Source of the DNA: Bryum argenteum
Taxonomy: Eukaryota > Streptophyta > Bryopsida > Bryales > Bryaceae
NCBI GenBank assembly: GCA_037043015.1
Contig: CM073325.1
Location: 8,287,001-8,351,000 of the forward strand
Direction: 5' to 3'
DNA: 64,000 bases
Both the position numbers and the translations under genes were made by a program. The notes beneath the pieces were generated by a model. That model was not told the origin of the DNA, did not search any database, and was given only the letters and a program-made list of their open reading frames with translations. This document shows, piece after piece, positions 4,883-61,941 of the stretch (the stretch's first letter is position 1; every line of letters begins with the position of its first letter).

Positions 4883-5150
4883 TTAACCCCTAAAGGCCCA
4901 AGAAAGCGGAAATCGCTTTTTGGAATTTCCGCAGGGAGAAAATTCAGCCAACTTTGACCATTATAATCTCAAAATTGGAGAAAATTTAACGGTTCAAATT
5001 TGACGTTTGAGAAAAGGGTCAAGTTAACTTCAAGATCCTACGGTTGGATTTTCTAATCATTGCTTAGATTGAGTTTCTTTGCACCTGAAGTAGAAGAAGA
5101 TTCTTTTTGATAATTTAAACAGTTTTGTATCAAGGACCTTTAGGGGTTAA
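4883..5150 (+). mobile_element. TTAA-flanked miniature element, 268 bp
   Basis: Begins TTAA-CCCCTAAAGG at 4883 and ends CCTTTAGGGG-TTAA at 5150, giving a perfect 10-bp terminal inverted repeat between two TTAA copies. Just inside the left end is a hairpin: AAAGCG (4903-4908), loop GAAAT, CGCTTT (4914-4919). The interior has the family core: 'agccaactttgaccattata', 'aacggttcaaatttgac' and 'gatcctacggttggat'. It has no coding capacity, so it would depend on a transposase supplied elsewhere. The TTAA duplication and CCC tip are piggyBac-like. Confidence 0.85.
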
Positions 5151-5639
5151 GGGAAGGCACTCTAAACCTGAACCAAGTTTAACCCTAAATTTGGACGGTA
5201 CCCCCATGATCGGACAACTTGGAATGAAGATTTCTTTTGGGTGGAATGAAGATTTCTTTTGGGTGGAATAAAGATTATCTTGGTTAGTATGTTCCTCAGA
5301 TGTACATGCATTAGGGTGAATGATTGTAGGTGTACATGTATTAGTCATTTTTAAACTTTGTAATTGAATATGTAAGTGCTTAAAAACGCCACAAAATAGG
5401 GAAATCTTGTCTTTTCTATCTGCTAAATTGTAAATGACATCTGTCATCACTCCAAGTATGGTGAATGACTTAAGTGTTCGAATATAGGTCTACTTACCCT
5501 AAAGGTCCTCGTAAGCACGAGGAGCTTGTTTCCAGACTTTCATGCGCTTTCATGACGTCACTACGCAACACAATATTCTTCTCATGGGCTCATTATGATT
5601 TGAAGAATGAACTGCACATAAAGAATGAAAGAGAAACTC
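5151..5639. other. Intergenic with a decayed TTAA-family end near 5492
   Basis: At 5492 the sequence TTACCCTAAAGG, followed by a hairpin CTCGT-AAGC-ACGAG (5506-5520), looks like an eroded hairpin-bearing end of the TTAA family. No right end was found. The rest holds no gene I can recognise. Confidence 0.35.
5221..5277 (+). repeat. 22-bp direct repeat, about 2.6 copies
   Basis: The unit 'ggaatgaagatttcttttgg'+gt occurs twice without change at 5221-5264, followed by a partial third copy. Confidence 0.8.
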
Positions 5640-5835
5640 CAGCCAATGTAGAGGCCGGCGTGAATAGATTGTTCGGTTGATCTATCATTGGATGTATGCT
5701 CGGATGTCATCACACCAATGGCGGGACTAATAATCCCTCTTGGGTGAACATTATCAGTAGTGCCTTAGAGATACCCGACATGGTATCCTCCCAAAGGGCT
5801 TTGAGGTACCCATACATTGAGATCCATGGACCCCC
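5640..5835 (+). repeat. Dispersed repeat, copy 1
   Basis: The stretch beginning 'gaggccggcgtgaatagatt' recurs at 8690 and, more diverged, at 54650. The shared segment continues through a 'ttggatgtatgc' motif to a 'tgaacattatcagtagtgcc' motif. This is an unclassified interspersed repeat. Confidence 0.6.
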
Positions 5836-6838
5836 CACCATGGTTAGATGGATTGTGGTGGTGAGCACCACGCCGGCATGGGGAGTAAAACCCACAACCT
5901 CCTCATTGGGGGCCATGAGCCCTAACCACCAAGCGAAGGCTTGTGATGCCTTCGAATGAAGTGCACAATCTTGATTCAATGTTGCATGCTTGCTTGATAA
6001 ATTGAAAAGGAAATGTGAGTAGCAAAAGAATTAGGGAACTCATCCCCTCTCTCACATCTGCCCAAGCACAAGATAGAAGGAAATGCGAGTGGTTACCGAG
6101 TTGCTCCTTTGGTAGCTGCTCTTAAACTGAGGAAATATTATAATTTACTTATTTTTTGAGAATGATAAAATAGCAATTGAAAATTACATCTTAAACCAGA
6201 GCAATTTTCTTGCTACCTTAGCCATGTTTTGGATTTCCTGATCTGATTTTTAAGCATGACAATCACATGAAGCTCAACAAATTAAAAGAAAGTGTGAGGG
6301 TGTGAACAAAGCAATTATAAAAGTATGAGCATCACTAACTCCCTTTCCTACAAGATCCCAATCATCCATGATGGTGCTTGCAAAGAAAGGACTGGAGTTT
6401 CAAGACCTCATGGAGCTCTTGATTGAGATCAAAATCATGGGTCTCACTCACTCCACTCAATCACTTTATGCATCATACTCTTTACAAGCAAGAAATGTGT
6501 ATGGGTACCTCCTCCAAAATAGTGTAATTTTTTTACACTATTTTTTAAAAAATAAAAAAACAATATTGAAAAATTATTCTATTACAGGTGACATGGCTAT
6601 AGTTGTATACATGGAGTTAAAAAAGAAATTTCTGACACATATATAATGAATTACACATAGGTCGCACATGATGAGACGCGTCTTAGTGGTACCCATATCA
6701 TGCTCGTGCCCAAATAAGGAAATCAAGAGTTGCAATCCTTAACAAAGTTGGGCCAATTTCATTGATATCTCCAAAATAATTCAAAGTAGAGGTCCCACAT
6801 TTCTATTGAAATCCCACTCTCATTTCCCTTTAATTACC
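5836..6838. other. Intergenic, no gene recognised
   Basis: Short open frames only, none resembling a known family. Includes an A/T-only run near 6530-6570. Confidence 0.6.
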
Positions 6839-7085
6839 TTAACCCCTAAATTTCCTTGTTGCAAAACGATTTAAGTCACAAAATTTGACCTTCCTTTAGA
6901 CTAATCTCGATTTAAAAGATTCAACAGTAAAATCTCATAGTTCACTTGTCATTCTTCTCACATACCAAATTTGAACAGTTCATTATTCCTCATTTGTGAG
7001 ATTATAATGGTCAAAGTTGGCTGAGTTTTTCTCCGGCGGGAACCTCCAAAACCTGTTTCGGGTTTAAAGGAAAGTTAGGGGTTAA
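6839..7085 (-). mobile_element. TTAA-flanked miniature element, 247 bp
   Basis: TTAA-CCCCTAAATTTCC at 6839 and GGAAAGTTAGGGG-TTAA ending at 7085 give a 13-bp terminal repeat with one mismatch. The hairpin lies inside the right end (AAACCTG-TTT-CGGGTTT, 7049-7065), so the element is reversed relative to the copy at 4883. The interior carries the same core on the opposite strand ('aatggtcaaagttggctgag' near 7008). Confidence 0.83.
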
Positions 7086-7890
7086 TCATCCTAGTTGACA
7101 ATGATTCCAAAACCAACTTGGAATATCCAATTCATAATTACCATAATTATAAGCTTTTCTCAAATTTCCAGCTCATTGTAGAACTTTCCTGCATCATAGT
7201 ACAAATAGCTGTCTCTGGCCTGAAAAAATGGCAGCTTAATTTCCATTGTCAGAGGTTCAGGGTTTAGGGTTTAAGGAGGAGCTTTGTACTATGGAACGTG
7301 ATACATTATCACTTAAGATACCACCACTTTGCAAAAAGTGATGTATAGAGATTGAATCTTCTATGACTTTCCCATGCAAATAAATAAAAAGCTGTTTGTT
7401 ACTATTGCACGAAATCAAATCGCTCCATGTAGTAGTACTTGTACTGAATGATTTTTTCTTTGGTTGCAACATTTCTAAACCCATGACACCTTACCAAAGG
7501 ATCGTCAATGACAAGTACTTGTGTGTATCAAGAAATGACATGCGCATGAGTATTATGGAGAGTGTCGTTTTCGAAGTCGTTAGGTTCCGAACGTGGAATT
7601 GATTGTTGAGGTATTACTTCGCTCAATGGTATCTCTAATTCAAGCACGTACAAAGTGAAGTTCGAGTCGTCTAGAAACATGTAAGATAAGAACACATAAG
7701 GAGCTTCCGCCGGGGTTGAAAGAGAATATAAATGATTATTGTGACATTTGAACCATAAGACCATGTATTCTATTCGAACTGAAACTTGTGAAAAAATCTT
7801 GAGTCATTCCATTTTATAATTTACAGGATAAGCGTCTGTGTTTTCTCTAGAATCTTACTCCACAAAAGCTTCTACAAAACCACATTAAAC
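7086..7890. other. Intergenic, no gene recognised
   Basis: No coding sequence that I recognise. A two-unit telomere-like string (gggtttagggttt) at about 7259 is too short to matter. Confidence 0.55.
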
Positions 7891-8157
7891 TTAACCCCTA
7901 ACTCTCCTTGTTGCAAAATGGTCTAAGTCACAAAATTTGACCTTCCTTTGGATTAAGCTCAAAAATTCTCAATCTAAGCATTATTTAAAAGATTCAACCG
8001 TAAGATCTCAAAGTTTGCTTGACATTCTTCTCACATACCAAATTTGAACCGTTCATTCTTCCTCATTTGTGAGATTATAATGGTCAAAGTTGGCTAAGTT
8101 TTTCTCCTGCGGGAACCTCCAAACCCGTTTCGGGTTTTAAGGAGAGTTAGGGGTTAA
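7891..8157 (-). mobile_element. TTAA-flanked miniature element, 267 bp
   Basis: TTAA-CCCCTAACTCTCC at 7891 and GGAGAGTTAGGGG-TTAA ending at 8157 form a perfect 13-bp terminal inverted repeat. A perfect 7-bp stem lies inside the right end (AAACCCG-TTT-CGGGTTT, 8121-8137). It is a close relative of the element at 6839, in the same orientation, about 800 bp downstream. Confidence 0.88.
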
Positions 8158-8689
8158 AGTCTCAAAAGAACATACCAAACTTTAGGATAATAGGTACTTG
8201 TTCGAACTCCGAACTATAGTTCCTTGACATATAGACAACAATACCACATGGGATAAGTATAACTTTTATACCTGACATCTATATTGTGGACTATACTTGT
8301 TTTGCTATAGTCATTATTGCCTATAAATGCAGTGCTACCTTCTTGATCATTTTAAGAACTTGCCTCATACGAGTATTACTCATACACAACTCCTAAGGCA
8401 CAAATGTGACTTAAATTCGATGATGAGACTCTACCTCCAAAATTCAACATTCTAAATGACAAGCTAGAACTTCACTACTTCACTTGTATTGCAATTTAGA
8501 TATTCTCTCCCTAGTGAATTTTTTTGCTCATTCCAAGATGTGAGGAAATGATAAAAATCATTTTAGAGTTAGCCTAAGCTTGATTTATATCAATGACAAG
8601 TTTGAAGAAATTACTTCCGGATCAAAAATAGACTAAGAGGTCTACGTTTAAATACGCAATCAAGATGTAGAGAAACAACTTAAGCCTAC
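8158..8689. other. Intergenic, no gene recognised
   Basis: AT-rich, with no plausible ORF or repeat structure that I can support. Confidence 0.55.
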
Positions 8690-9007: not shown

Positions 9008-9771
9008 TTAACACCTAATGCTATGAGGTCAAATTTTAACACCTTACCCTCAAAATTGCCCTCTTCCAATGCAAGGGAAGATTTTTTTACTTTTGTAGTG
9101 TAATTTAAGGATTCTAATCGTAGGATCAAGTATCTGATTTTAACTTGATCATATACACCAGATTTTGAACTCAAAGTCCTCACCATTTGTGATATCATAA
9201 TGTTCGAAGTCTAATGAAAAAGTTCTTTGTCTTATCCTCAAAAGAGAAATCAGTGCTTTGGAGCCCAAGAAAACAATCTTAAAAGTAAATATGTGGCTCT
9301 TCGGATTCTTGTATCTTGGGAAGTTAGGTACATGTTTACATAAATTTTGCCATGATAGGAGATATAAAACGTAGAGAAAAGCTTGATTTTTCACATTAAG
9401 GTATGCTGAAATTAAAACATAGAGGCTTCAATTTGACGGTTAAACAAGCATGTGAAAGTCCTGATGCCTTGTTAAAAACAAAATCTGAAAAGTAGTAAAA
9501 TCTTAATTTTTAGTAAATCCTTAGGGTTACTGCAATCTTGTTGTTCTTTCGCAAAAAATTGAGAATATATGAGGATATATTGCAATTTCGGGCAGGTTTC
9601 ACAATGTTGTTATCGAGTTTTGAGGGTGAATATCTCTTGAAGTGTGAGGAATTCTGAAGCATGAATTATCTTGTTGGAATGGTATAAGAAAGCTCTACAA
9701 TCTCCACAACTTTAGGAGTTAATTTTGTTTGCTATGTAGATATAGTACCCATTTTAATAATCGACCTTTAA
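9008..9771 (+). mobile_element. Decayed TTAA-family element related to 10853
   Basis: Starts TTAA-CACCTAATG at 9008 and ends cgacc-TTTAA near 9771. The interior aligns along its length with the element at 10853: 'cctcaaaattgccctcttcc', 'cgtaggatcaagtatctgat', 'tttgtgatatcataatgttc', and near the right end 'gaagcatgaattatcttgtt' followed by 'aagctctacaat'. The termini are eroded, so the exact ends are uncertain. Confidence 0.5.

Positions 9772-10740: not shown

Positions 10741-10741
<1 letters not shown>

Positions 10742-10774
<33 letters not shown>
10742..10774. repeat. Poly(T) run
   Basis: About 32 consecutive T residues. It could be the reverse-strand tail of an old retroposon, but no body is recognisable. 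Confidence 0.8.
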
Positions 10775-10852: not shown

Positions 10853-11470
10853 TTAACCCCTAAAGTGGACTAGCCCCATTTAATTGCTAAAATTTCTCAA
10901 AAACTAGCAAATACTAGTACCCTCTATTGATGCAAGGTTGAAGTTTTTTAAAATTTTGACGTATTTTTAGGTGTGTAACCGTAGGATCTAATACCTAACT
11001 TGTATGTGTACATGTCTATGTGTATCAAATCTCATATTCAAATTCCTTACCAATTGTGAGATCGTAATGTTCAAAGTTGGAGAAGAAGATTTTTCCTTTT
11101 GTTGTAGAAAGGGTGACTAGTTGTTTGAGGGCCAAAAGAACCACTTTTGGTAATTAACTTTATCATGAAGCTCTTCACATTCTTGTTCCTAGGTGCGTTG
11201 AGAACATGTTTATGCAATTTTTACCCTCATAGAATCTATGGACCTTAAAAAATCGCTTGATCATTCACATGGAGGTATATGCTGAAATTCAAATATAAAG
11301 GCCAAGCATTATCTTCTAAAATATGAGGAGTTTTGAAGCATGAAATGACTTTTTGGAAAGGTATGGAAAAACTCTACAACCTACAGAAAGTTTCAACATC
11401 ATACGAGCTAAAAATAGTAAGTCAGATGCTGACCAAAATCCAAACAACCTCAGTCCACTTTAGGGGTTGA
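10853..11470 (+). mobile_element. TTAA-family element, 618 bp
   Basis: TTAA-CCCCTAAAGTGGAC at 10853 and GTCCACTTTAGGGG at 11453-11466 form a perfect 14-bp terminal inverted repeat. The right flank reads TTGA rather than TTAA, one substitution from a duplication. No subterminal hairpin is evident. The interior resembles those at 3707, 9008 and 56007 ('accgtaggatctaatacc', 'ttgtgagatcgtaatgttca'). Non-coding. Confidence 0.8.
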
Positions 11471-14096: not shown

Positions 14097-14384
14097 TTTT
14101 TTTTTTTTTAAAGTAACTGTTTGACATGGAATGTGCACACCACATTCATGAGGAGAGTCAGTTTCTACACTTCGGAGAGAGGTGAGGAACGATTGAAGAA
14201 TGTCTAAAAGGGATCAAATATGCATAGAAAAAAGTCCGTCTGGTCGATGATTTTATCGATCAACTCCTCGAATGCCACTTCCTCGGTGAGTGCAAATATG
14301 AAATAAGCTGGTCGACGGAGAATAAGATAATTCAGCTGTCTATTAAGACTCGCTCTTTTGGTAAGGTTATGTTTTCTCTACAAA

Positions 14385-15175
14385 CATTTGTCTATAATGT
14401 CGACAACTTGGATGGATTGAAGGCAGCAACTTTGAGGAATCATAAGTTCTTCATTGGAGGTTTGTTTCGGATGAAATCACTTGAGTTGAGTTCCAAATCA
14501 AGTCTGATATTTGTGGTTAAAATTTCGGACCTGTTGACAGAAGTATGAATTTATAATGGTATGCGTTTTGGTGAAGGTAGCTCTTAGCTTTTGGGTTTTC
14601 AAACATGGGGCATGTAAGCCAGTTATGTAAAACCCTATTAGTTGTTCATTGATGTTCTCTTTGCAAAAGTTAGTACAATCCGAACAACTTTGCGGTTGAA
14701 AGATTTTTGTTTTAAATAGTTTAGGTATTGATTTTTTAGTGATGCTACTGTCTTGAAAAGATACCTAGAAAGAATATACAGTATTTGAAGAGAAGTTTCT
14801 CGTTCATTCCCTGTTGGATTTTAATTTTGTTTGTTAGGTTGGATTCGACTTTGGATCTTGTTTTTGTAGTAGAAACTTGAAATACATCGAAGAAGTTGTG
14901 GCATTCATTTTGTGCAACAGGCCAACTTTTGGACATTTTTTCATTTGGTAGTTTTTAAGTTGATTTCACCCTTGCAAAGCCATTAATTTCAAAGAGAGAT
15001 TCTCCTTATGGTTTGTTTGGTTTATAGGTGTTATTGAGATGAAGGTAAAAGTCTTTTTAGTTGGTGTTTTTTTTTATCACATTGCGTCTATTGGTAGCAT
15101 TTTTACTTCAAAGTGAAAATGTTGAGATTTTGTTATGTTTCTTTGGATATCAATACGTTATGATCTCCCAACCTA
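14385..15175 (+). repeat. Diverged copy of the ~980-bp TTAA element family, termini lost
   Basis: Aligns by eye with 36490-37290: 'gattgaaggcagcaactttg', 'gatgaaatcacttgagttga', 'ttccaaatcaagtctg', 'aaaatgttgagattttgtta'. Neither TTAA terminus is visible and similarity stops after 'tttatgactcaa'. Confidence 0.6.
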
Positions 15176-15990
15176 TGGGGCTTTATGACTCAACCTCCGG
15201 AGTAGGAATGAATTCCGGTATGGTATTGTACGGAGTAGGAATGATACTCGGTAAGGTATTGTGCAACCCGCGGAAGATTACAAGAGGACCATCGCTTGGG
15301 GTAACTCCGGCGATATCACTGATAGTTAGAAACTCGGATGAGTAGTCATGGTTTACTCTAGATTAGTATCGTAGTAGTAGAAGATGTTTTGAATTGTCCG
15401 GATCAAGGAGATAGTACGGACTATCCATATTAGGGAGATATCTCGGATTTTCTGGATCACACAAAATGCGGATTTGAGAAAAACCATGATGGTTTTGGAT
15501 ATTTCTCAAGAGAACGCATTTTTTCTCGGGTCTTTTTTAGATGTACTTGCTTTCATGCCAGGAATCGAGGTTTGTGTTGTTTGCATTTCCAAGATTTGAG
15601 TATGTCTTTAGGTTTATGTTTCAATCTGTCTCTTGTTGTGGGGGATAGTATGCTTTGTCTGTGATTGGACTTAGTAGGTAGAACAAGGTGCAACTGTAGC
15701 TTAAGAAGTCCGGCTTGCAGCACATCTGAAGAGAGGAGTTCGCCAAGATCCAAGATCTAAACTGACTACTGAAGAGAGAGTACTCTTCTGGCTTGGAACC
15801 ACGGGGGCAGGTAGACCGGATTGGTTCCAAATCTTTGATAGCTAACTCTCTGCTATCAGGGATAGAAATAGAAAAAGTGACAAATATCATAATTTATTTT
15901 GATGTTATTAAAAGCATAATTAAAGCTGACACTTTGTGTCATTACAGTCAAGTCATTACAACTGTCACTTTCAGTGCCATTTTCTACTAG
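15176..15990. other. Insertion between two family copies; possible CACTA-type end
   Basis: Separates two copies of the same repeat. Its right margin 'ttttctactagtg' (15974-15986) looks like a CACTA-type terminus. I could not find a partner CACTA start at the left, so this is unproven. Confidence 0.35.
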
Positions 15991-16905
15991 TGGGTATGCG
16001 TTTTGGTGAAGGCAACTCTTAGCTTCTTGGTTTTCAAACGTGGGGTATGCTTTTACCAATGTAAGCCAATTATGTGAAATTCTATTTAGTTGTTCATTAT
16101 AGTATTTTTTTGCAAAAGCTAGTATAATCCAAACAAATTTGCGGTTAGAAGTTTGAATAGTTTAGGTATTGATTTTGCAACGAAGCTACTATCTTGAAAG
16201 AGAATCGAGAAGATATACAAGGTTTTTAAGGAGAAGTTGCTCATTCACCGTCCAATTTTGCTTTCAAAGTGAATGATAGATTTACTTCATTGCAAATTGA
16301 ATGGATAAATTAAATTTACCATCCAAATTTATCCTCAATTTACCATTCAATAAATTTATCATTCACTTTTGCTTGCTAGGTTGGATTCTAATCTGGAATC
16401 TTGTTTTTGTAGTAGAGGCCTTAAATCCATCTAAGATGTGAGGACTTTGTAGCATTAATTTTCTGCAGCATGCCTCATTTTGGACATTTTTCATTTGATG
16501 ATTTTTAGGTTTATTTCAGCATTGCAAGGCCATTATTTGCTGAGAGAAATTTTCCTTATGGTCTTTTTGGTTCAAAGGTGTTATCGAGATGAAGGTAAAC
16601 TTCGTTTTAGATGGTGTTTTGTTTTTATCGCAATGAGTCTATAGGTACCATTTTCACTCCAAAGTGAAAATGTTGAGGTTTTGTTATGTTTTTTGGATAC
16701 TAATACTTTTTGATCTCCTTGCCTATGAGGCTTTATGACTTAAAATTGGACTCGCATAATGTGCAATATGTTTACCACAAGATCAAACAGATGAAATCTT
16801 GTGGTAATATGAAGTTTGTGGTAATATGAAGTCTGTTGATCATATGAAGTTTGTAGTAATATAAAGTTTGTTGCAAAGTCATGGTTCTTCTTCAACATGA
16901 ATTGG
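15991..16905 (+). repeat. Second diverged copy of the ~980-bp TTAA element family
   Basis: Matches 14560-15175 and 36655-37350: 'tatgcgttttggtgaaggca', 'aggtattgattttgcaa', 'aaaatgttgaggttttgtta', 'tttatgacttaaaattggac'. Towards the right end an 18-19-bp unit 'gtggtaatatgaagtttg' repeats about four times (16800-16875). Confidence 0.55.
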
Positions 16906-19097: not shown

Positions 19098-19735
19098 TTA
19101 ACCCCTAAAGATCCAAGAAAGCCGAAATGGCTTTTTGGGGTTTCCGCAGGAAAAAAAGTCAGCCAACTTTGACCATTATAATCTCAAAATCGGAAAAAAA
19201 TTAACGGTTCAAATTTGACATATGAGTATAGAGTCAAGTTCACTTCAAGATCCTACGGTTGGATCTTCTAATTAATGCTCAGATTGAGTTCTTTTGGGCC
19301 TGAAGTAGAAGAGGGTCCACGGTGTCGTTTTTCGACATTTTGGATGTAAGGCTCCGTCTTTGGTGCACAACCCCACTTTCATCCCATCGATTTTTCATCC
19401 GCCGTTCTTTTTGCTCAACTCCTCGGTGGTTTACTCTACTCCCTCCTTGGATAAATAGCAAAAACCTTGATCCTCAATTTGTGAGAGTGGGCGAAAGAGA
19501 TTTTTCATGAAAGTTTTGGTGGTGTGATCTTCACCCCTTCTTTGCATGGATCTTGAAATCCATACCTCCAAATGGCATGCAACTTAGAGGTCATACTAAT
19601 TGCCATGCTCCAAAGAAGATCCTACGGTTGGATTTTCCATTTTCATCTTTTATTTGTTTTTACGCAGTTTTGAAAAAATCAGCATTATTACCAACTGTTA
19701 GGAGCTTTACCCCCCCTTGGGCGTTTAGGGGTTAA
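19098..19735 (+). mobile_element. TTAA-family element, 638 bp, with extra internal segment
   Basis: TTAA-CCCCTAAAG at 19098, and TTTAGGGG-TTAA ending 19735. Left hairpin AAAGCC-GAAAT-GGCTTT (19118-19134). The first 215 bp parallel the 268-bp element at 4883. After 'cctgaagtagaaga' an additional ~370-bp segment intervenes, and this contains its own TGTCG-TTTTT-CGACA hairpin (19322-19336), like the one that opens the 36473 element. A second TTAA follows four Gs later (TTAAGGGGTTAA). Confidence 0.8.
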
Positions 19736-21400: not shown

Positions 21401-22003
21401 TAATAGTAACCTTGGTACAACATGAGGGCCGAGGCTATTGGAATTTCCAGCCTATACGCTCCGTAGGGCCAAAAGATTATTACTATGCTAAAACAAGTTC
21501 AACGGGCATGAAACTTGGACGACCGCTACAACATATCCATAATTCCTCCAAATAACGTGGTATGTCAACAATGTGACGGCCAACAAAATCAAGTATAGCC
21601 AAAGCAACCACTTTAGAGTCACCAGTTCTCGGTCTCTTCCAATGCAATGTCCACCTTGAGAGGATTTAGTAGTCCTATACCACTATTGTTATGTCGGTGG
21701 GCATATCATCAAGGGGTAGGTCGAACGTACACTTTATTCATGCCAATCCCTAGGGGTCAGGTGTTATTTTTCTTCCAATATGGCAAGACCCCAAGGTGCC
21801 AAAGATTCCCCATAGCAACTTCAATTTTTTTATTCCATTGTTCATAAATTCTATGAGAAAATACTTAAAGCATCTTAGGAGGAGATTTAATGATTTTTTT
21901 TTTCTTTTAAAACAATTAATGTAATGCAACTTCTTTTGTTTTCCTTAACCCTTCAAATAGGGAATGGAGAGTAGGAACTATAATTTCAAACATTGAAAGA
22001 AAA
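21401..22003. other. Intergenic before the LINE
   Basis: No gene seen. A TTAA-CCCTTCAAATAGGG string at 21955 resembles a family end, but no partner was found. Confidence 0.5.
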
Positions 22004-25000
22004 AGAGAGTAATTACCAAAGGCTTAATCATACTCCTTCACAAAGGAGGGGAGAAAGAGGACCTAGGAAATTGGAGGCCCATCACCTTGTTAAACACGGC
22101 CTACAAAATTCTAGCCAAAGCATTACAGCTTAGACTTCAACCTACCCTTCCCGAGCTCATTTCCAATGATCAGACGGCTTTCATCCAGGGGAGATTCATC
22201 CTTGATAATGTGCTCGTTACTCATGAAGTCATAGAGTGGGCAAAGACTTCGAATCAAGATCTTGTTCTTCTCAAGTTAGACTTTAGAAAAGCCTACGATA
22301 TGGTTAACCATGAGTTTCTCTTCCAAGCTTTAGCCAAAGTAGGATTGCCTAACAAGTTCCTTGCCTTAACCAAGCTTTTGTTTACTAATGCTCGGGCGTC
22401 AGTATTGTGTAACGGAATCATTTCCAAAGATTTCCAGTTAGAGAGAGGCGTTCGTCAAGGATGCCCCTTGGCACCCTATCTTTTCCTTTTTGCAGGTGAA
22501 GCTCTCAACGCAGCTACTAAAAGTCTTATTGCAGAATCCGAGCTTAGCGGGATCACTCTGCCCAACTCCACCACCCAACAAGCAATCATTCAATACGCAG
22601 ACGACACAAACTTCACGGTGGCAGGTACAGAACGCAACTTATTAACCCTCACCAACACTCTCGAGAGGTTTCACAAAGCGTCCGGCCTCCAACTCAATTG
22701 GGACAAAAGTGTGGTCCATTGGTTCTCACAAGAACCCCCCCCCCCCACCTTGGACTCAACGACTCCAATGTCAATGGGCCCAAGAGGGGGTCTTATCTAA
22801 GCTTTTAGGCACCCCGTTTGGCTTAAACCAACGAACCGTGGACGTAGATGAATTTCTGCTCCAGAAAATTACCAAGAAGCTGAACTATTGGCAGACCACC
22901 CACCTGTCTCTATCAGGTAGAGTTCTAATCATCAACTCTATCCTCCTCTCTTCTCTTTGGTACTTTCTAGGCATTTGGTGTGGTTCTTTGGTGATTCTCA
23001 GAAAAATAAAGACCCTTATAAGGAACTTCCTTTGGTCGGGAGTGGTCAATAAGTGCCGCACCAGGGTTTCATGGGCCGACTGCACTTTGGCCAAGTCAAA
23101 AGGTGGGCTAGGCCTTTTAGACCCGGAAGACGTCCTACACGCCCTAATGGCCAAGTGGGTAATTAGAGCACTCACGCCCGGCAACACCAACTTGCAAACA
23201 CTGCTGCGCCACAAGATCCTACAGGTCCAACCCACCTATCCTGGGAGTTGGCCTAAATCCCCTAACTGGATCCTCCTGTACAAATTTCGCTCAACTCGCG
23301 GCTCGAAAGTGTGGGAGAGAATTATTAAAGCTTGGAGGAAACTCTCCCCCTCGATAGATGCCATCCCACCTGCAAACGCAGACGAGGTTAAGTCAACTTC
23401 CTTATGGTTTGCAACCCACCGGTTGTCTAGACTTGACAATTTCGATTTAGAGAGGATCCCCACTCTTATGAGAAGCAGCTTTTCTCAAATTAATGATATC
23501 TGGTGCCCTAGGAGGCTGAAAATCATAGACTGGGAAGAAGCACAGAATAAGTTCCAACTAGAAGTTGTCGAAGAGGCCGCATACTTGCAGTTGATTCACT
23601 CTATTCCTCCCAAATGGTTGGAACTACTCACTAACCCGAACATAGAAGCTTCAAAAGAAGACTTTATTGGTATCTTTGCAGATACGATTGCAGGTCTTCC
23701 CAGCATGGTGATCCGGGCCTCGAGCAGCTTCACTCTTCTCGCTACAACAGAACCCCAGGAGGTCCAAATCCCTTGCGGGGCCGAGATCTTCGCAGTAGGC
23801 GCCACAAGCATGCTGCAAAGAACGGCACCACTCACAGGGCTAGCAAGGAGACACACCGGCCGGTTCGCGAGAGTTCGGGTGGTGTCAGTGACTACTGGCT
23901 CCGCCAAAAATGCTAACATTGTTTTGTGGTATGCTGGTATTATTGCGAATTTAAGTTTTGACCCGGCAAGATGGAGATGGCGTAGCAAGTGGACATCCAC
24001 AACTACCAAGACTAGACGGCCTCCCAAACACAAGGGTCAATGCTTGCTCAATTACACAACTAAAGAGGGCAGAGCACTCGTGAGACCTATCCAAGAACTG
24101 AGCCGCTCCATCCCCGAGAAATGGAAAGGTATTCTCCCGAGCACGTACAAGCCGGATTGGCATGAAGTCTGGCATGCAGCCAAGCCACAAAAGGAGGCAG
24201 GGTTCCTATGGTCGGTTTATCACCATGCCATTGCAGTGAATGAATGGCGCCACCAAATGTGCCCCCAAACAGACAGGAATTGTCCTAGTTGCCTGCTTCG
24301 TGTCCCAGAGTCAATTAAACATCGATTTGTAGAGTGCCCCAAAGCCACGCATGCGTGGAACTATGCACAAACGATCTTCAACACCGTCATGCAGGTTCCA
24401 GCACGAGAGGGCAAATGGGATCCTTTAGTTTGGCAGCAATGTCTATTGGGGTCTCCTCTCCCTCGCAAACTCAGAAAAGGTAACAGCATTTGGATGGTGT
24501 TAAGAGGCTTAGTAATATGGGTGATGTGGTTGGATAGAAATGCTGATGTATTTGCAGACACCAAATGGACCCCTCAGTTTAGAGAGGTACGAATTTGGGA
24601 ATCTATGCTAGATATTATTCGAACAGCTTGGGAACGAACGATGTACCTAATACACACACATCCCGCCCACGCCGACAAGTTTCTGGACAAGTTCGATCGG
24701 AATTGGCTGCCTACGGACGAACTTGCCTCAAGAGTAGAAACAGCTCTGGAATGGAATGCCACGAGACCGTCTATGGGGGCATTCAGGATGTAATCAAGTC
24801 AAATAGCACCAACAACTTTTCACAACATATGTCTGGTTTGAGGGGGATTTGGGGTGCAGGCCATAAGATAACGAGTGTTGCTGTAGAGAACAGCGCAGGC
24901 ATCAGGCGAGGAGTTGCAGTGGCGTGGAGGAGGACGGCAAAGAGCAGGCAGGGCTCTAGCTGCAAGTCAAGGACCTGCGGCGAGACACGAGGAAAGGACC

Positions 25001-28713: not shown

Positions 28714-29083
28714 TTAACCCTTAAACGCCCGAGCAAGCCCGAGGGGCTTGATTCCAACAGAATCTTCCCTGTAGCTCTCATTGTACTCAACGTTTCACTT
28801 ATATTTTGATGTCAAACTGGTCACCTTCTTCTGATGCATTCAAAAAGTGAATTTTCACAATTCAAATCACAATTTGTACGAATGATTTTGTGGTTTGAAA
28901 GGATTGTGGTAGGTAGGTTGGGGTGGTACATAACCTTGTAGGAGGTTGCAAGCTCATCATTGATTGGTCCATTCATGATGCCCAAGTTCAAAAAGTGCAC
29001 TATTCATGATGCCCAAGTCCAAAAGATGCTGTGATCCAATTTTGGGCTGCCCGTTTTAGACCCCAAGGGCGTTTAAGGGTTAA
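28714..29083 (+). mobile_element. TTAA-flanked element, 370 bp
   Basis: TTAA-CCCTTAAACGCCC at 28714 and GGGCGTTTAAGGG-TTAA ending 29083: a perfect 13-bp terminal inverted repeat. Left hairpin is a perfect 7-bp stem, CAAGCCC-GAG-GGGCTTG (28734-28750). The interior is unlike the other copies. It ends 729 bp upstream of the CYP40 start codon. Confidence 0.88.
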
Positions 29084-34876: not shown

Positions 34877-35853
34877 TTAACCCCTGAGCGTCATTGGCAT
34901 GTTTTCACCCAAAAACTCAATTTTTAAAAAAGTGTCATAGATGAAAATAAAAGTAAAGCTATCTAGAACTCAACTCGATAAATTTGTAGTATACTTGTTG
35001 TAAATCATGTGGACCAAAACTTGACTCATGAGACCTTATAGATTGCAAGATCACAACATTTTAGTGCGCAAAACATGCTACAAATACAATCAAATTCACT
35101 TTGAAGTGAATATACTACCAACATGACATTTGCAATTATAAAAATCACCAACTAAAACGTTTTTCATCTTCACTCAAAAGACTCTATTGTACCAAAATAA
35201 TCCATCAGAAAAATATCTTGGCTCAAATAGTAGCCTTGCAATAGTGAAAGTTGCCAAACAATCTTCAAAGAAAAAATAGTCCAAACTAGATCCTTGCACT
35301 CAAATCCATACCTTATCCTCAATATATTTTCGATCGGGTCAAGGTTTCTATGACTAGCACTAGACTAAAATCTAAATCCATCCCAAAAATTAACCCAAAA
35401 ATTAACGGCGGATGAAGGAGATATAGCTCTTCAAAAGACATCCACTTTTTCACTTTCTTTGTTTTGCAAGCATCATTGTAAATCCAAAACCGATGTTATC
35501 TCGATCAAAAATCTTCCAACTACAAGGTTGTTGGGATGCATCTAAAGATCACACGTAAGTAAAGAAAATTCATGGAAAACTATTTTTGATCTCACTTAAT
35601 TGGCTTGCAATAATAAAACAAGCCAAATACTTAAAAACCCAAAAACATAAACTACCGTCACTAAAATGCACGTCATTTATTCATACTTTATTGTATGGTT
35701 TTGCAATTTTACCACACAAACTAGACTTCATTTGGAACCCAACCAAAGTGATATTGTCCAAAATGGACTTCGAATGAAGAGGTTATTGGTCTTCAAAGTT
35801 TTTCCTCTCTATCCACAGTGGCGTTTTTCGGCACTAGGGGTGTTTTGGGTTAA
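34877..35853 (-). mobile_element. TTAA-family element, 977 bp, reverse orientation
   Basis: TTAA-CCCCTGAGCG at 34877; the right end reads GGTGTTTTGGG-TTAA at 35853. Its reverse complement aligns end to end with the element at 36473: after the terminus comes a hairpin (GTGGCG-TTTTT-CGGCAC, 35818-35834, one mismatch), then the 'gattttggacaa'-like stretch, the 'ccaaatgaagtctagtttgt' stretch and 'caagccaattaagtgagat'. The termini are less alike than in other copies, suggesting an older insertion. Non-coding. Confidence 0.78.
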
Positions 35854-36472: not shown

Positions 36473-37452
36473 TTAACCCCTAAACGCGCCGAATGTCGAA
36501 AAACGACATTTTGGATGGAAGGCAGCAACTTTGAATAGCCATATCTTCTTCATCCGAGGTCCGTTTTGGATGAAATCACTTGGGTTAGGTTCCAAATCAA
36601 GTCTAGTTTGTGTTGTAGAATTTGCAAGCCCATACAATAAAGTATGAATTAATGGAATGCACTTTAGTGAAGACAGCTCTTGTTTTTGGGTTTCCAAGCA
36701 TGGGGCATGTATTACCATTGCAAGCCAATTATGTGAAATTAAAAAAAGTTTTTCATGATTTTTTTTTCATGGTCATGATCTTAAGGTGATTCCTAACAAC
36801 TTTGTAGTGAGAAGTTTTTTGATCCAAATGACTTTACTATTGGATTTGCAATGATGTTTTGTCAACAAATAAAGTGAGAAAATGGATGATATTTGAGGAG
36901 CTATATCTCCTTCATCCACCGTTGGATTTCAACTTAATTTTTTGGAATGGCCTCCAATTAGAGTCTAGTCTAATTGGTAGAAACCTTAACAAGATCGAAG
37001 ATGTTTTGAAGATAGGGCATGAAATTGAATGCAGAGGGTCTAGTTTTGGACTAATTTTCCTTTGTAAAATTTTTGGCAGTTTTTACCATTGCATGGCTTT
37101 TATTTGAGCCAAGAAATTTTTTTGATGAATTTTTGTTGGGTAAAGGACTTATTAAGATGAAGGTGAACATCTTTCTAGTTGGTGATTTTTTCATTGCAAT
37201 AGGTATATTGGTAGCATTTCCACCTCAAAGTGAAAATGATGAAATTTTGCAATTTGTTTTTAGTATTAATATGTTATGATCTCCCGATCTATAAGGCCTC
37301 ATGACTCAAATTTTGGTCCACATGATCTTCGATAAGTCTATTACAAGTTTGTACGGTTGAGATCTTAATAGCTTCTCTTCATTTTCACCTATGATGATTT
37401 CTATGGAAATGTGCTTTTCTGCTAAAAATAGGCTGGGGCGTTTAGGGGTTAA
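36473..37452 (+). mobile_element. TTAA-family element, 980 bp
   Basis: TTAA-CCCCTAAACGCGCC at 36473 and GGGGCGTTTAGGGG-TTAA ending 37452: a 14-bp terminal inverted repeat with one mismatch. Perfect 7-bp left hairpin AATGTCG-AAAAA-CGACATT (36492-36510). Best-preserved representative of the long subfamily, with relatives at 14385, 15991, 34877 and partly 56007. Ends 526 bp upstream of the DUS3 start codon. No ORF of note. Confidence 0.9.
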
Positions 37453-47258: not shown

Positions 47259-47588
47259 TTAAACCTTGAAATCCTAAATTTTTTTAAGGGCATACTCGCA
47301 GTGCCCGAGAACAAGTAGAAAATTGGCGAATTTTCACTTAAAATTTTTTCGTTGAGATCTAGGCCTACAATCATGAATTGAATCTTGCAACCAATATCAT
47401 AATTTCGATCACAACCATGAATTGAATCTTACGACCAGAATCAGAATTTTCATCTGTAAAGTTCCTTAATGCAGAATTGCCTAAATTACCAAAAATGACC
47501 TACTTCAAGTTTTTTTCAAAGGGTCAACCTGCAAGAACCCCAAAAAGCTCTTTCGCCATTGTGGCTTTCTTGGATCTCTAGGGGTTAA
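47259..47588 (-). mobile_element. TTAA-family element, 330 bp, reversed
   Basis: The right end GGATCTCTAGGGG-TTAA (47588), read backwards, gives TTAACCCCTAGAGATCCAAG, like the opening of the 19098 element, followed by a GCC-ATTGT-GGC hairpin (47555-47565). The left end TTAA-ACCTTGAAATCC (47259) is a diverged partner. The interior has two ~40-bp repeats of 'catgaattgaatctt'. The gene-side end is 566 bp from the WD40 stop codon. Confidence 0.65.
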
Positions 47589-56006: not shown

Positions 56007-56580
56007 TTAACCCCTAAAGGAAAAGGTGAGCAGCCTCAATACAATCAAAAACCCTCAAAACTGCCCTTTTATTATGCAAGATGGAAATTTTGTTTTAGAC
56101 AAGTTTAGGAACTGTAACCTTAGGATGTAGTAGCTAACTTGTACATGTACTTGTACATCGAATCTTTGGACTTCTTTTCCTTTGTAATTTTTTGGCAGTT
56201 GTCACTATTGCAAGGCTAATATAGGAGCCAATGATTTTTTTTGATAGATTTTTTTGGTACAAGTGTGCTATTTAGATGAAAGCAAACAATTTTTCAGTTG
56301 GTGCCATTTTGATAGCACATCGTTTGTTGGTAGAATTTTCACTCCAAACTCAAAAAAATGAAATTTTACGATTTTGTTTTTAGTATTAATACGTTATGAC
56401 CCCTCAATCTATGAGGGCTCATGACTAAAAATCTGGTCCACATGATATGCAATAAGTTTACTATAAGTTTCACAACTGAGATTTAAATAAATTCTCTTCA
56501 CTTTCATCTATACAATTTTTTTAAAATCTTTTTTTGATGTGTTTTCTAGCTAAAAGTATGCAATAACGTTTAGGAGTTAA
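56007..56580 (+). mobile_element. TTAA-family element, 574 bp
   Basis: TTAA-CCCCTAAAGG at 56007; the right end CGTTTAGGAG-TTAA at 56580 has one mismatch. The left half resembles the 3707 and 10853 elements ('ccctcaaaactgccctttta', 'aaccttaggatgtagtagct'). The right half resembles the long element at 36473 ('aaatgaaattttacgatttt', 'ggtccacatgatatgcaata'). It therefore looks like a mosaic of two subfamilies. Confidence 0.8.
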
Positions 56581-57730: not shown

Positions 57731-58110
57731 CATGAAAGAATGTGGGAATAAAAAAGGCATTTGGTTAGGAAGAGAAGGGAACCTTGGAGGAATGGCGGAG
57801 GAGAAATGCGACCTCCTTGAAGACCAAATGTGCTCCACCCGGGAGGAGGATTGGTGGTGGAGACATTGTTTACATTGGCACCTTCGATTTGTGGCAAAGG
57901 TCCTTGCGAATCCATGGAGCAAAGTGCGGCAGAGAGAAGAAGAGTGCGTGCAAGCAAGATAAAGTGAACGGCGACCAAGGTGGTTGGAAATTGAGCACGG
58001 AAATGAAAATGGAAAGGGTACTAGAGAGAAGGAGAGTATGCGCATGCAAGATAAAGTGAACGGCAACAAAGGTAGTTGCATGTTTAGGAGGGAAATGAAA
58101 ATGGAAAGCG
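57731..58110 (+). repeat. Segmental duplication, unit A, part 2
   Basis: Matches 62284-62575: 'gaatgtgggaataaaaaagg', 'atggcggaggagaaatgcga', 'gaagaccaaatgtgctccac', 'ttgcgaatccatggagcaaa', 'gggaaatgaaaatggaaagc'. In unit B this part follows part 1 directly; here about 3.1 kb separates them. Confidence 0.85.
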
Positions 58111-58385
58111 CACAAGCGAGAAAGAGAGTACGCACCGTAGAGAAAGAGAATATGCGCTGGAGAGAAGGAGGAGAGAAGGAGAGCATGCGCCAGAGGGAAA
58201 GACAGTACGCACCGGAGAGAAGGAGGAGAGAAGGAAAGTACGTGCTAGAGAGTAGGAAAGCACGCGTGGTAGAAAGAAGGGGAGTACGCGCTATAGAGTA
58301 GGAAAGCAAGCCTGATGGAGAGAAAGAGAGTGCGCGCCTGAAAAAAGGAGAGTATGGGTGTTGGAGAGAAGGAGAGTACGCGCGC
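58005..58385 (+). repeat. Purine-rich degenerate minisatellite
   Basis: A unit of roughly 25-35 bp around 'gagagaaggagagtacgcgc' recurs about ten times with drift. The charged reading frames on both strands (57984-58301 plus, 57572-58309 minus) are consequences of the repeat. Confidence 0.7.
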
Positions 58386-58799
58386 CGGCCGTGTGGTACG
58401 CCTCTAAATTACCAAGGCTTATTCAATTATTGAAGAAATAAATATCAACAAGTTGGTCCATCAGAATAGATCTCAAGAAATGGTGTTGATATGACATTTG
58501 ATACGAGTAAAGAGGTATTTGAATGTTTGCTTGTTACCAATTTCAACAACTTCTCGCTTCTCACGGTTTTCAACAATCTCGGTCGTAGCTTGTCATTATT
58601 CTCAACAATCTCATTCCTCTCTTCTCACAATGCAAAACAATCTGTGTCCTTACTAGTCACTATTTCAATACAAATTTTGACAAGAATTGTCACTACTCAT
58701 GAGAATCTTAATTAAACACGTTAGCATTCAATGAAAAAAATAATTTTCACTTGTCATTATATACAAGACTCTCAATTCTCACTTAGTACTACCAAAGGC

Positions 58800-59265
58800 A
58801 ATCCTAAAAGCAAAATTTATTATCCCATATTTTGTTCTAGAATACAATGTTAAAGTCAATTATTTTACAATTTTCAAGTTATTGTAATTACGAAAAATAA
58901 CAAAATTTTCATTATTGAAAACCTCTAACAAACCCTCACAGAGCAAAACATATCTACCAAATTGCAATTTTAATATATATTATTGACTTGGTTGAAAGCA
59001 AGAAGACCCTTTCAATATACAAGACTTTATAGACAATGATAATATTACATTGAATCAAGTGCAAAGATGGCACTTTATAAAAATTAGCCTTAAATTTACG
59101 CCATTGTACACTTTCTTAAACCAATTTTCCTAGAATATGAGAATTACTGTAGATAAAAACTACTCTGGCTTGTTCCTAAGGAACTAATACTCCTCGAGGG
59201 GAGAATCTAATCCAAATTCTAGGAAAGTGAGCCAGCATTTGCAGGTGGATATTCTGAACAAAGGA
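58800..59265 (+). repeat. Segmental duplication, unit A, part 3
   Basis: Matches 63640-64000: 'aaattgcaattttaatatat', 'attgacttggttgaaagcaa', and the ending 'ccagcatttgcaggtggata'. About 100 bp (about 59020-59130) has no counterpart in unit B. Confidence 0.75.
59131..59221 (+). repeat. 91-bp segment found inverted in the other duplicate
   Basis: Runs from TAGAATATGAG to CAAATTCTA, i.e. with 9-bp inverted ends (one mismatch). Its reverse complement lies at 63874-63963 with only about two differences, while the flanks there are in direct orientation and less similar. CCTCGAGG lies near the middle. Confidence 0.8.
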
Positions 59266-59538
59266 ATCACTCCATGAGTGTGCTGGGTTGGGGGCTTTGT
59301 AATTCTGCTTAATTGCCATGACCCACCCAAAAATGTCAAGTTCCCATCCACCTTGGAATTAACGACCACTAAAGGGATATAAAAAGCCCCTTCTCATGTC
59401 TTTTAAAAACACCATCACAGCATCAAAAGTGATGTTCTCCACTTTGTATGCAATCCAACCTACCATTCCATAAGGAAGAGGCACCTATAACCGTCCGAGC
59501 ATGAAGTTCGGAGAACGATGAATTTGTCATTTGGAATT

Positions 59539-59886
59539 TTAGAATAATTCCCACTTGGATAGCCTTTCTTCGATCATCTTGCACAATTTGGATGTCGCTT
59601 CTATTTGATGATATTTTTCCCATCCCCCATTCTCCTCCACCCACATTGGAAATGGGAATTCTTCTCTTGGGAGGGGGGATGGTACATTGCTTGAGCAACA
59701 ATTGGCCGGTATTTCATCACTCATACTCGGGGAGAGTCTTTTATCCATCATGTTGAGGAATTTGGATCTCAATTCTCTTTTGTTATGTTTGTCCCATCCC
59801 TTATTTTCCACCCACATTGGGGTTTGTTTCCTTGGGGGGATGTAAATGGGTGGGGAGGGTACATTAGTTCGGTTTTGAGGCTCCAT
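59539..59886 (-). CDS. Unrecognised 115-residue ORF with two related repeats
   Basis: ATG at 59886. The protein contains two copies of a ~45-residue motif: NVPSP...PMWVE-N-KGW-DK...SKFLNMMDKRLS and NVPSP...PMWVEENGGW-EK...SKLCKMIEERLS. The copies are more alike in protein than at third codon positions, which hints at past coding selection. I do not recognise the family. Further coding-like sequence in other frames follows to about 59184 (for example QNIHLQMLAHFPRIW), so this may be the start of a decayed gene or element ORF. Confidence 0.3.
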   Translation of the reverse strand: MEPQNRTNVPSPPIYIPPRKQTPMWVENKGWDKHNKRELRSKFLNMMDKRLSPSMSDEIPANCCSSNVPSPLPREEFPFPMWVEENGGWEKYHQIEATSKLCKMIEERLSKWELF

Positions 59887-60218
59887 TGTTTACGATTCTC
59901 AAAGTGCAATTGGAACTTATCAAAAGGGCCCCTTTCTACAGTATGTGGGTGAATGATAAGAGCACAATAGTAGCCAGAAATGCCCTGGATAGTGGGAAGA
60001 AAATAAGGATTGAAGGAAGAGGAATGGGAGGGAATAAGAGGAAATGAAAAGAATAAGGGAAAATGAGGTATGTTTTCCGGTTATATAGGTCGTAGTACGC
60101 ATTAAAGAGCTGTCGAAGTGAAGCTAAAGTAAAAGTGGTGGGGGCCGGGTATATACCCGGACCCCACCGGAAGTAGGAAAAGGGTTTTGACAATATACCC
60201 GGCTATCGACGATGTACG
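59887..60218. other. Junction between duplicate units; 32-bp palindrome
   Basis: At 60137-60168 the sequence around CCGGGTATATACCCGG is palindromic with GGTGGGG/CCCCACC outer arms and one mismatch. Otherwise purine-rich, no gene. Confidence 0.5.
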
Positions 60219-60626
60219 ACGACTGAGACAAGCTCCGTCTCCCCGCGTTCGTTTCGTTCATTTGCTCGTCGTCGTCGTCGTCGCTGGATGAGCAGTCCAG
60301 TGTCCTTGCCCCGCCCTCCCTCAGCTGAACTGATTCCATCCCTGCTTGCTCCATATGGATGGATGAACGAACAGCACCTGCTGTGTTCATTCATCCATGT
60401 GGCTACCATTTAGTATGGTTGCGTGGAGGCGCATATGCCAAAAGTGAGTGTCACATCTGGTTCAACAATGGCAACCAGGTTGTCAAGCCAAAAGAGAATT
60501 TCAAGTTGCACTTGTGGAAAAGGGTGGTATTTCCATCAAGTTCTTTACTCATATCTCCACCAAGGATGCCTCATTCAGTGGACATTGTGGGCGGAGTCAT
60601 TTAACATGGTAGAAATATGGAGTTAT

Positions 60627-61521
60627 TTAACCCCTAACTTTCCTTGAAGCCCGAAATGGGCTTTTGCAATTCCGGGCAGCCTAGATGAAGGGGTTAAAAG
60701 TAATATTTTTGACTAAGAATTTTATTGGGTTCTCCTTATACTGCAAAGTGTATGTGGTAAAATTTGCAAAGTCAAATTCCAATGTTTGAGTCTTCTAGGA
60801 CGATCCTTGGGTTGCGAGCCGAGATGGGGCAGCTCAAAAAAGTAACCTTTTTTATTTTATTTTTTTTGAAACATGATCATTACTAAATCACTACTCAAAT
60901 TTCAAAGTGACTCAAGTCAAAAAGTTTACCAATTTTACAAGGGCAGCCTCCAAAAAAATTTAAAACCGATCTTCGCAATACCCAAAAAAACTTGGGAGAC
61001 AAACTTTGGATGTTATGATCTCTCAAATGGTAAACATCCAACGGTCAAATTTTTAAAGAGTAATCACGCATATTCTTAGGTACAAGATCTTACGGTTGGA
61101 AGTTTTAGAAAAAGAAAAGAAATTGGTTCACACCCCACGAGTGCATAGAGGTAGAGTTTTTTTGGGTATTGCGAAGATTGGTTTTAAATTTTTTTGGAGG
61201 CTGCCCTTGTAAAATTGGTAAACTTTTTGACTTGAGTCACTTTGAAATTTGAGTAGTGATTTAGTAATGATCATGTTTCAAAAAAAAATAAAATAAAAAA
61301 AGTTACTTTTTTGAGCTGCCCCATCTCGGCTCGCAACCCAAGGATCGTCCTAGAAGACTCAAAAATTGGAATTTGACTTTGCAAATTTTACCACATACAA
61401 TTTGCAATATAAGGAGGACCCAATAAAATTCTTAGTCAAAAATATTACTTCTAACCCCTTCATCTGGGCTGCCCGGAATTGCAAAAGCCCATTTCGGGCT
61501 TCAAGGAAAGTTAGGGGTTAA
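60627..61521. mobile_element. Foldback TTAA element, 895 bp, with ~365-bp arms
   Basis: TTAA-CCCCTAACTTTCC at 60627, GGAAAGTTAGGGG-TTAA ending 61521. The left arm (60631-60991) is repeated in inverse almost exactly at 61157-61517, around a ~165-bp spacer. Each arm starts with the hairpin AAGCCC-GAAAT-GGGCTT (60647-60663 on the left). The spacer keeps the family core ('aacatccaacggtcaaattt', 'tacaagatcttacggttgga'). Inserted exactly at the TTAA of the 26-bp repeat. The arms look about 98% identical, so it is young. A transcript would form a long double-stranded RNA. Confidence 0.93.
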
Positions 61522-61673
61522 CATGGTAGAAATATGGAGTTATTTAACATGGTAGAAATATGGAGTTATTTAACATAGTAGAAATATGGAGTTATTTAAC
61601 ATGGTAGAAATATGGAGTTATTTAACATGGTAGAAATATGGAGTTATTTAACATGGTAGAAATATGGAGTTAT

Positions 61674-61941
61674 TTAACCCCTAAACGACCACGGCCACCG
61701 ATTCGTCTTTTACAGTCAAGGCCAAATAAAATTTACAGTCAACTTCAAATGTTTTGATCTCACATCTAGTGATGATCCAACGGTTGAAAATTTCCACACT
61801 ACTACCAATGGTAGTCTACTTCAAGATCCTACGGTTGAATTTATCAAAAGTTTCCAAAAATATTGGAGGTACCTCATTAGTACATAGTGGTCAGTGTTGG
61901 GATTTCAAGCTCCCAAAACATCGTGGATCTTTAGGGGTTAA
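61674..61941 (+). mobile_element. TTAA-flanked miniature element, 268 bp
   Basis: TTAA-CCCCTAAACG at 61674 and TTTAGGGG-TTAA ending 61941. Same length as the 4883 element, and shares 'aagatcctacggttgaa' and a 'gatccaacggttgaaaat' variant of the core. Inserted at the same position of the 26-bp repeat as the foldback element. Only a weak 3-bp stem (CGG-CCA-CCG) follows the tip. Confidence 0.9.

Follow-up and report, generated by a model that had tools for sequence, protein, structure and literature searches.

Short TTAA-flanked elements of the moss Bryum argenteum very probably belong to several piggyBac families with coding relatives in the same genome

Which transposase moves the short TTAA-flanked elements scattered through a 64-kb stretch of the genome of the moss Bryum argenteum (C5:8287001-8351000; this whole stretch is called the window in the following)? 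The genome comprises 258.8 Mb on 25 contigs. The initial annotation had listed twelve such elements in the window and attributed them to one piggyBac-like family with an unseen coding partner. The element set was confirmed, and the piggyBac interpretation was supported. With a probability of about 0.96, the window elements are non-autonomous members, of the type of miniature inverted-repeat transposable elements (MITEs), of several piggyBac families in this moss, moved by the transposase of relatives via TTAA. In the proposed mechanism, a transposase encoded by autonomous relatives of 5.0-6.5 kb elsewhere in the same genome would bind the element ends; the element would be cut out through TTAA hairpins and inserted at TTAA, leaving TTAA on both sides. 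The hairpin chemistry is carried over by analogy from piggyBac of Trichoplusia ni (T. ni) and would be expected to apply here.

TTAA was present at all twelve start coordinates. Ten elements had both ends within one mismatch of TTAACCCCTAAA and TTTAGGGGTTAA, whereas those starting at 34877 and 47259 were degraded and did not conform to the form that had been drawn up for all twelve. The claimed CCC was found at both tips of ten elements (exceptions, 47259 and 56007). Exact end sites numbered 12 in the window (8 left, 4 right) and rose to 25 when one mismatch was allowed, compared with means of 0.0 and 0.52, respectively, in 50 first-order Markov sequences. None of the 23 stop-to-stop frames of at least 130 amino acids fell inside a listed element, in agreement with the statement that the elements encode no protein. 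Their summed length of 6,432 bp corresponded to 10.05% of the window, matching the earlier estimate of about 10%. The window is richer in exact TTAACCCCTAAA sites than the genome (12 versus about 3.5 per 64 kb), so this share must not be extrapolated genome-wide.

When the end sequence was searched genome-wide, the TTAA flanks proved consistent. At 14,192 of the 15,087 places of TAACCCCTAAA (94.1%) the outer base was T. The 14,192 exact TTAACCCCTAAA sites compared with 172 for the reversed control, and the string with a non-T outer base occurred at 895 places (control, 227). For TTAACCCCTAAAGRYCC, an outer T was seen at 3,475 places (control, 0) versus another base at 153 (control, 1), i.e. 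95.8% of 3,628; for the end of coding family A described below, the figures were 162 (control, 0) versus 5 (control, 0), i.e. 97.0% of 167. These values bear on the idea of a TA-target superfamily (Tc1/mariner, Stowaway-like), under which the element would be ACCCCTAAA...TTTAGGGGT, the duplication TA, and the outer T and A coincidental. TA-target elements are common in plants, and the symmetric string TTAACCCC...GGGGTTAA can indeed be parsed as an element with a TA duplication. Base composition would then lead one to expect about 30% outer T, not 94.1, 95.8, or 97.0%, and the matching coding elements carry the piggyBac transposase domain PF13843. These counts already refute a TA-target origin, which we regard as extremely improbable. 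Among the matches listed for TTAACCCCTAAAGRYCC, ATAA was apparently the commonest of the non-T outer ends, which may represent rare non-TTAA insertions or point changes.

The duplication itself could be followed in a 26-bp tandem array at 60593-62104 (no strand assigned). Its unit, ATGGTAGAAATATGGAGTTATTTAAC, offers TTAA many times over, and the array has received two TTAA elements, 60627-61521 and 61674-61941. Empty units read GTTATTTAACATGG, whereas filled ones read GTTAT-TTAA-element-TTAA-CATGG. The empty units thus represent the pre-insertion sites of both elements, and the TTAA duplication is visible from the comparison of filled with empty units.

The longer partner that had been predicted, with the same ends and a DDE_Tnp_1_7 domain, was found in the form of elements of 5.0-6.5 kb encoding a PF13843 transposase. 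A PF13843 profile search of the genome yielded 116 scored matches from 775 candidates, with a best E value of 7e-82 and matches on each of contigs C1-C11; the positions of these matches also indicated at least 11 multi-megabase contigs. There were 0 matches in 14 control genomes, a weak control because the genomes named are all prokaryotic. We read 31 transposase loci, equivalent to 26 distinct places (five were fetched twice); several 20-mers of the family A end fell 1.8-3 kb from a PF13843 match, which prompted the reading of such stretches. Five complete coding elements with CCC tips at their ends were delimited. Two belong to family A with ends TTAACCCCTAAAGGCCC (locus L030, 153-5856, 5,704 bp, and L032, 1298-6998, 5,701 bp), one to family B with ends TTAACCCCTAAAGATCC (L043, 680-7140, 6,461 bp), and two to family C with ends TTAACCCTTAAACGCCC (L039, 2031-6980, 4,950 bp, and L040, 1475-6673, 5,199 bp).

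Five window elements matched these end variants. The 268-bp non-autonomous element 4883-5150 (plus strand) begins with the family A end TTAACCCCTAAAGGCCC, and its first 20 bp are identical to the ends of coding stretches L029-L034. Family B ends were found in the 638-bp element 19098-19735 (plus; left end TTAACCCCTAAAGATCC), in the degraded 330-bp element 47259-47588 (minus; at the right only, the left end being TTAAACCTTGAA), and, as a variant, in the 268-bp element 61674-61941 (plus). In the latter, bp 44-268 (225 of 268 bases) aligned at 89% identity to the final 236 bp of L043; judged from this alignment, the element is an internally deleted derivative of an L043-type coding element. The 370-bp element 28714-29083 (plus) carries TTAACCCTTAAACGCCC of family C at both ends and matched the ends of the coding copies at 94% over 34 bp and, at the other end, at 84-85% over 40-43 bp.

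The remaining elements formed groups of their own. The 247-bp element 6839-7085 (minus) was 84% identical to the 267-bp element 7891-8157 (minus). The 618-bp element 10853-11470 (plus), with TTGA as its right duplication, has a diverged relative overlooked previously, 9008-9722 (plus; ends TTAACACCTAAT...TTTAGGAGTTAA; 66% identity over 376 and 76% over 79 aligned columns). The 980-bp element 36473-37452 (plus) is accompanied by the 574-bp kin element 56007-56580 (plus; right tip CTCC) and by an inverted, diverged relative at 34877-35853 (minus; 76% over 921 columns), of which the left end has 2 mismatches and the right end, near 35853, reads inward TTAACCCAAAACACC. The 895-bp foldback element 60627-61521 (no strand assigned) has arms that are about 97% complementary. 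Additional partial or degraded relatives missed before lie at 3707-3892, 14413-15193, and 15993-16800. The single family of the initial annotation was therefore not upheld: the ends represent several related families, each with its own variants, and three of these have a coding partner among the loci read.

The coding elements were examined for the identity of their product. Seven of ten proteins submitted to Pfam matched PF13843 with E values of 1e-75 to 3e-83, five of them encoded between two matching ends; the upstream parts of the split frames of L030 and L039 gave no Pfam match, and the tenth protein came from the epimerase gene of the window mentioned below. Against PDB, the 916-residue frame of L031 matched piggyBat (9c0f, 3e-27) and piggyBac (6x67, 4e-25, the chain match beginning at residue 110), with the motifs of the catalytic aspartates aligned. 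In T. ni, the catalytic triad consists of D268, D346, and D447 (PMC7351741). Across the 31 loci, the first aspartate was present in 31, the second in 30, and the third in 28, the remainder being gaps. The first Cys of a C-terminal CxxC was found in 21 of the 31, with gaps in 10; the alignments thus place a Cys-rich tail wherever the frame extends that far. The four long frames read comprised 831-1,008 amino acids, and the N-terminal 400-500 or so residues of L031, L040, and L041 had no Pfam match. Upstream open frames of 100-200 amino acids in coding elements may be further exons. Programmed frameshifting was considered for L030 and L039, which break at similar places, and was dropped: compared with close relatives, a short run of C is one base longer or shorter at each break, for which ordinary decay or assembly error is enough.

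The coding copies were compared with each other. At 60% protein identity the loci fell into three groups (25 of 31 entered; six were missed by the motif filter). L030 on C2 and L032 on C4 have different flanks and showed 0 substitutions in 5,699 aligned bases, with small indels. L031, L033, and L034 deviated from these two by 4-8 differences in 5,551-5,670 bases and L029 from the other family A copies by 90-93; the family C copies L039 and L040 differed at 196 of 4,941 bases. The presence of near-identical, full-length coding copies in one genome demonstrates, at the level of sequence, that piggyBac has recently multiplied in this land plant. The transposase protein is presumably expressed and active today.

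Non-autonomous copies were likewise dispersed. With the 980-bp element 36473-37452 as the query, 40 scored places of 6,536 candidates spanned the element from base 1-3 to 980 with 95-100% identity on 10 contigs; with the 895-bp element 60627-61521, 40 of 4,321 did so from base 1-2 to 894-895 with 94-100% identity on nine contigs. The window's own copy is counted in each set, and the sets are not random samples, only the best candidates having been scored. One copy of the 980-bp element on C11 reached 1,764 bits versus 1,768 for that of the window. Similarity ended exactly at TTAA in different places, as expected of a transposon, and the elements are thus discrete mobile units. They are short and non-coding, occur in many copies with the same edges, and in the case of 4883, 19098, 28714, and 61674 share ends with autonomous families, i.e. 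they have the features of MITEs. A spacing of 268 bp between end sites recurs in the genome. Among 100 places listed on C1, neighbors within 1.5 kb stood 14 times in element order and 5 times in the opposite order. The telomere repeat was considered as a source of CCCTAAA and dropped; of four contig starts two were N and two lacked an array, and the sites pair as element ends. CTAACCCCTAAA also recurs on C1 at a spacing of 71-79 bp (e.g. 20812912/20812991 and 21889848/21889919), an array unrelated to the element ends.

Dispersal also decides whether animal or fungal contamination of the assembly could underlie the transposase matches, a notion suggested by piggyBac being known chiefly as an animal transposon. 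Every one of contigs C1-C11 has transposase matches, the copies found with the 980- and 895-bp queries together extend across the same contigs, and the window with its twelve elements holds plant-type genes. Contamination is already refuted by this distribution, and we assign it practically no weight.

The ends were also scanned for palindromes. A first scan for any inverted repeat in nt 13-50 gave only a slight excess over shuffled sequences (mean 4.09 versus 3.56, 85 ends). The signal was seen once the center was fixed and scanned. For this, 41 representatives less than 75% identical were drawn from 112 ends of the window and 75 loci, some of them overlapping. Pairing of nt 20-26 with nt 32-38, centered on nt 29 (counting from the outer T; bp 25 within the element), was realized in 118 of 287 instances (0.411), the highest value among 68 centers (mean 0.264, next best 0.338). 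When right arms were redealt among the ends, 75.1 ± 7.4 pairs were obtained and 0 of 20,000 shuffles were as high, which is not a strict probability because the ends are related to one another. Ten ends paired at five or more of seven positions, compared with 1.5 on average and 7 at most; at other whole-number centers from 22 to 55, at most 4 ends did so. The arms differ between families yet stay complementary: five of the ten palindromic ends had G-C as pair 24-34, four had C-G, and one had T-A. The center was picked with the data in view, and the left end of T. ni piggyBac (oligonucleotide of PMC7351741) therefore served as an outside check. It paired at 5/7 at center 29 and at no more than 3 elsewhere, and it is at bp 17-33 of this end that a dimer of the Cys-rich domain (CRD) binds (PMC7351741). 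The aligned ends thus establish that many elements have, at one end, a palindrome of constant position and symmetry where the CRD binds in T. ni. It would constitute a two-fold symmetric site for a CRD dimer, with letters following the specificity of each family, and moss CRD dimers probably bind it.

In families A and C the palindrome occupies the end upstream of the transposase, the other end scoring 1/7; in family B the upstream end was weak (3/7) and the other scored 0. Seven of the twelve window elements have a palindromic end. It is on the left in 4883, 19098, 28714, and 36473 (7/7), on the right in 6839 and 7891, and on both sides of 60627, and it is absent at center 29 from 10853, 34877, 47259, 56007, and 61674. 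In T. ni the right end has another palindrome deeper inside; in the five elements inspected for such a repeat, family A alone showed one, centered near nt 50.

The TTAA target is not exclusive to piggyBac. The MITEs might accordingly have been made by another TTAA superfamily such as Kolobok or Sola3 and share just a short tip with the piggyBac elements, a view to which the four window groups lacking a coding partner in the loci read lend some color. It is countered by the 34 plus 40-43 bp that 28714-29083 shares at its ends with piggyBac-coding elements, by the 236 bp shared between 61674-61941 and L043, and by the palindrome at center 29, which partner-less groups have in common with groups whose partner was found. 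On these comparisons such an origin is very unlikely; no search aimed at Kolobok or Sola transposases was made. More serious is the possibility that transposases of the autonomous families read here, and not partners of their own, act in trans on the partner-less families (36473, 60627, 10853, and 6839). Their first 12 bp are the same or nearly so, and the genome contains coding copies from no fewer than three protein groups. Against this, the palindrome arms differ by family, which suggests different CRD specificities, and partners may have been missed, since 26 distinct places were read of 116 scored matches. Movement in trans remains a substantial minority view.

The foldback family deserves separate mention. 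It is represented by at least 40 full-length copies on nine contigs with a left-type palindromic end on both sides; the palindrome scores were 6/7 and 6/7 in 60627-61521 and 7/7 and 6/7 in the relative at L030 6500-7394. Wild-type piggyBat moved neither donors with two left ends (LE/LE) nor donors with two right ends (RE/RE) in cells, whereas T. ni piggyBac carrying an additional, second Cys-rich domain was hyperactive on LE35/LE35 (PMC11707139). We put forward, tentatively and as less probable than its opposite, that elements with two left-type ends are natural substrates of a moss piggyBac. The moss enzyme, whose N-terminal part is much longer, may therefore assemble differently and accept symmetric ends in nature. 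Alternatively, a right-type site may be hidden further inside one foldback arm, or the copies may arise otherwise. The T. ni transposase integrates LE35 ends in vitro (PMC7351741), so tolerance of symmetric ends may be less rare than it appears, which counts against the two-left-end proposal.

Several observations weigh against assigning the window elements to piggyBac families with coding partners in this genome. Queries with joined flanks against the window and the 75 loci gave clean empty sites in 2 of 21 cases, both in the tandem array; a third (L030 6500-7394) found diverged relatives of the site without TTAA at the spot. No end with at most two mismatches was found in 12 of the 31 loci, i.e. 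10 of the 26 distinct transposase places. For nine of these ten the reading took in no more than 1.5 kb of flank; for L041 it covered 7.5 kb without encountering such an end, so its ends are different or lost. The loci read included no coding partner with the ends of 10853, 36473/56007, 60627, or 6839/7891. The frames of several coding copies are interrupted, and the DDE domain starts late, at residue 396-507 in L031, L032, L040, and L041. Beetle piggyBac elements measure 2.1-3.5 kb and encode 500-725 amino acids (PMC12732532), and the moss coding elements are longer in both respects. Finally, a MITE with a GATCC-type end (1,056-1,061 bp in three copies) sits at one same spot of a larger amplified repeat, with the common flank ATATTC[CT]TTC, in at least 16 of the 30 loci L046-L075 taken from the TTAACCCCTAAAGRYCC places (L048, L049, L055, L056, L058, L060, L063, L064, and L068-L075). 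Some MITE copies have thus spread inside a larger repeat, and the genome counts are inflated. The end counts of family A and the tandem array are independent of this repeat.

The window and the genome held further features. On the minus strand at 2-1491, a sugar-nucleotide epimerase gene (Epimerase, GDP_Man_Dehyd) is split into two parts by a gap of about 300 bp that resembles an intron. At 21997-24790, RVT_1 is followed by zf-RVT in a different frame, representing a decayed retroelement resembling a long interspersed nuclear element. A 45-bp tandem repeat occupies 62581-62805, and direct repeats of 253 bp at 57777 and 62329 are 81% identical. Contig C12 carries rbcL, tRNA-Arg(CCG), and accD (named by eye from its translation) in this order and is plastid DNA. 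The C-terminal domain of a bacterial-type RNA polymerase alpha subunit gave one match, on nuclear contig C3, and none on C12; in Physcomitrella, rpoA has reportedly been lost from the plastid to the nucleus. Dirigent genes, not known outside land plants, gave 21 matches, 20 of them over the cut-off. By themselves these markers indicate with high probability a moss genome. The Dirigent matches at C13:2524 and C13:24230 are inverted and equal in score to that at C6:2035319; contig C13 may represent a duplicate left unplaced or may itself be palindromic.

piggyBac is widely used as a TTAA transposon tool. From a recently multiplied population of several families with coding copies, plant biologists would gain a native TTAA transposon for experiments, along with natural end variants in the thousands. 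With a palindrome whose letters change at constant position and symmetry, the evolution of Cys-rich-domain specificity could be read out and tested, and the foldback family would put to the test the rule that two unlike ends are needed. The covarying palindrome and the foldbacks with two left-type ends may both be new. In the literature searched, no description of a moss piggyBac was found among the matches listed, although Bouallegue et al. 2017 may hold an earlier mention; one moss genome paper matched by the word "piggybacking", used in a different sense.

The range of piggyBac has been given as animals, fungi, protists, and occasional plants such as red algae (PMC12732532), and its occurrence in plants is mentioned in passing (PMC10140906, PMC10813416). 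PiggyBac is among the seven superfamilies of angiosperm MITEs (PMC10004981), was recorded in all groups of a 257-species survey, land plants included (PMC4438587), and appears in a general plant scheme (PMC10794571). The repeat table of the fern Ceratopteris lists 1,230 PiggyBac pieces totaling 122 kb, about 100 bp each (PMC6890710). In the sections of these plant surveys consulted, the entries are superfamily labels, given without an element, a transposase, TTAA evidence, or a moss case. The earlier wording that piggyBac is poorly documented in land plants is accordingly fair, more so than "absent" would be (PMC10004981, PMC4438587, PMC10794571).

The closest parallels lie with animal systems. 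T. ni piggyBac (IFP2) shares with the moss elements the TTAA target, the CCC tip, a DDD transposase with a C-terminal Cys-rich domain, and a palindromic internal repeat of the left end with the same center. It differs in size, with 2,472 bp (PMC10140906) and a 594-residue chain (6x67) versus 5.0-6.5 kb and frames of 831-1,008 amino acids in the moss; the letters of the palindrome are also different, and the proteins match only at E 4e-25. piggyBat of Myotis lucifugus, the best PDB match of the moss frame (3e-27), has imperfect palindromes at its left end, 3 bp inside the core motif, that are bound by a CRD dimer (PMC11707139). Its symmetric donors were immobile in cells with the wild-type enzyme, whereas the moss harbors a foldback family with two left-type ends that has multiplied. 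Bee piggyBac elements (Bombus, Exoneura) have terminal repeats of 200-493 bp (PMC10140906); long repeats are also a feature of the moss foldback, an 895-bp, non-coding element. Taken together, the moss elements can be placed with confidence in a known superfamily, here in a host group that has received little study.

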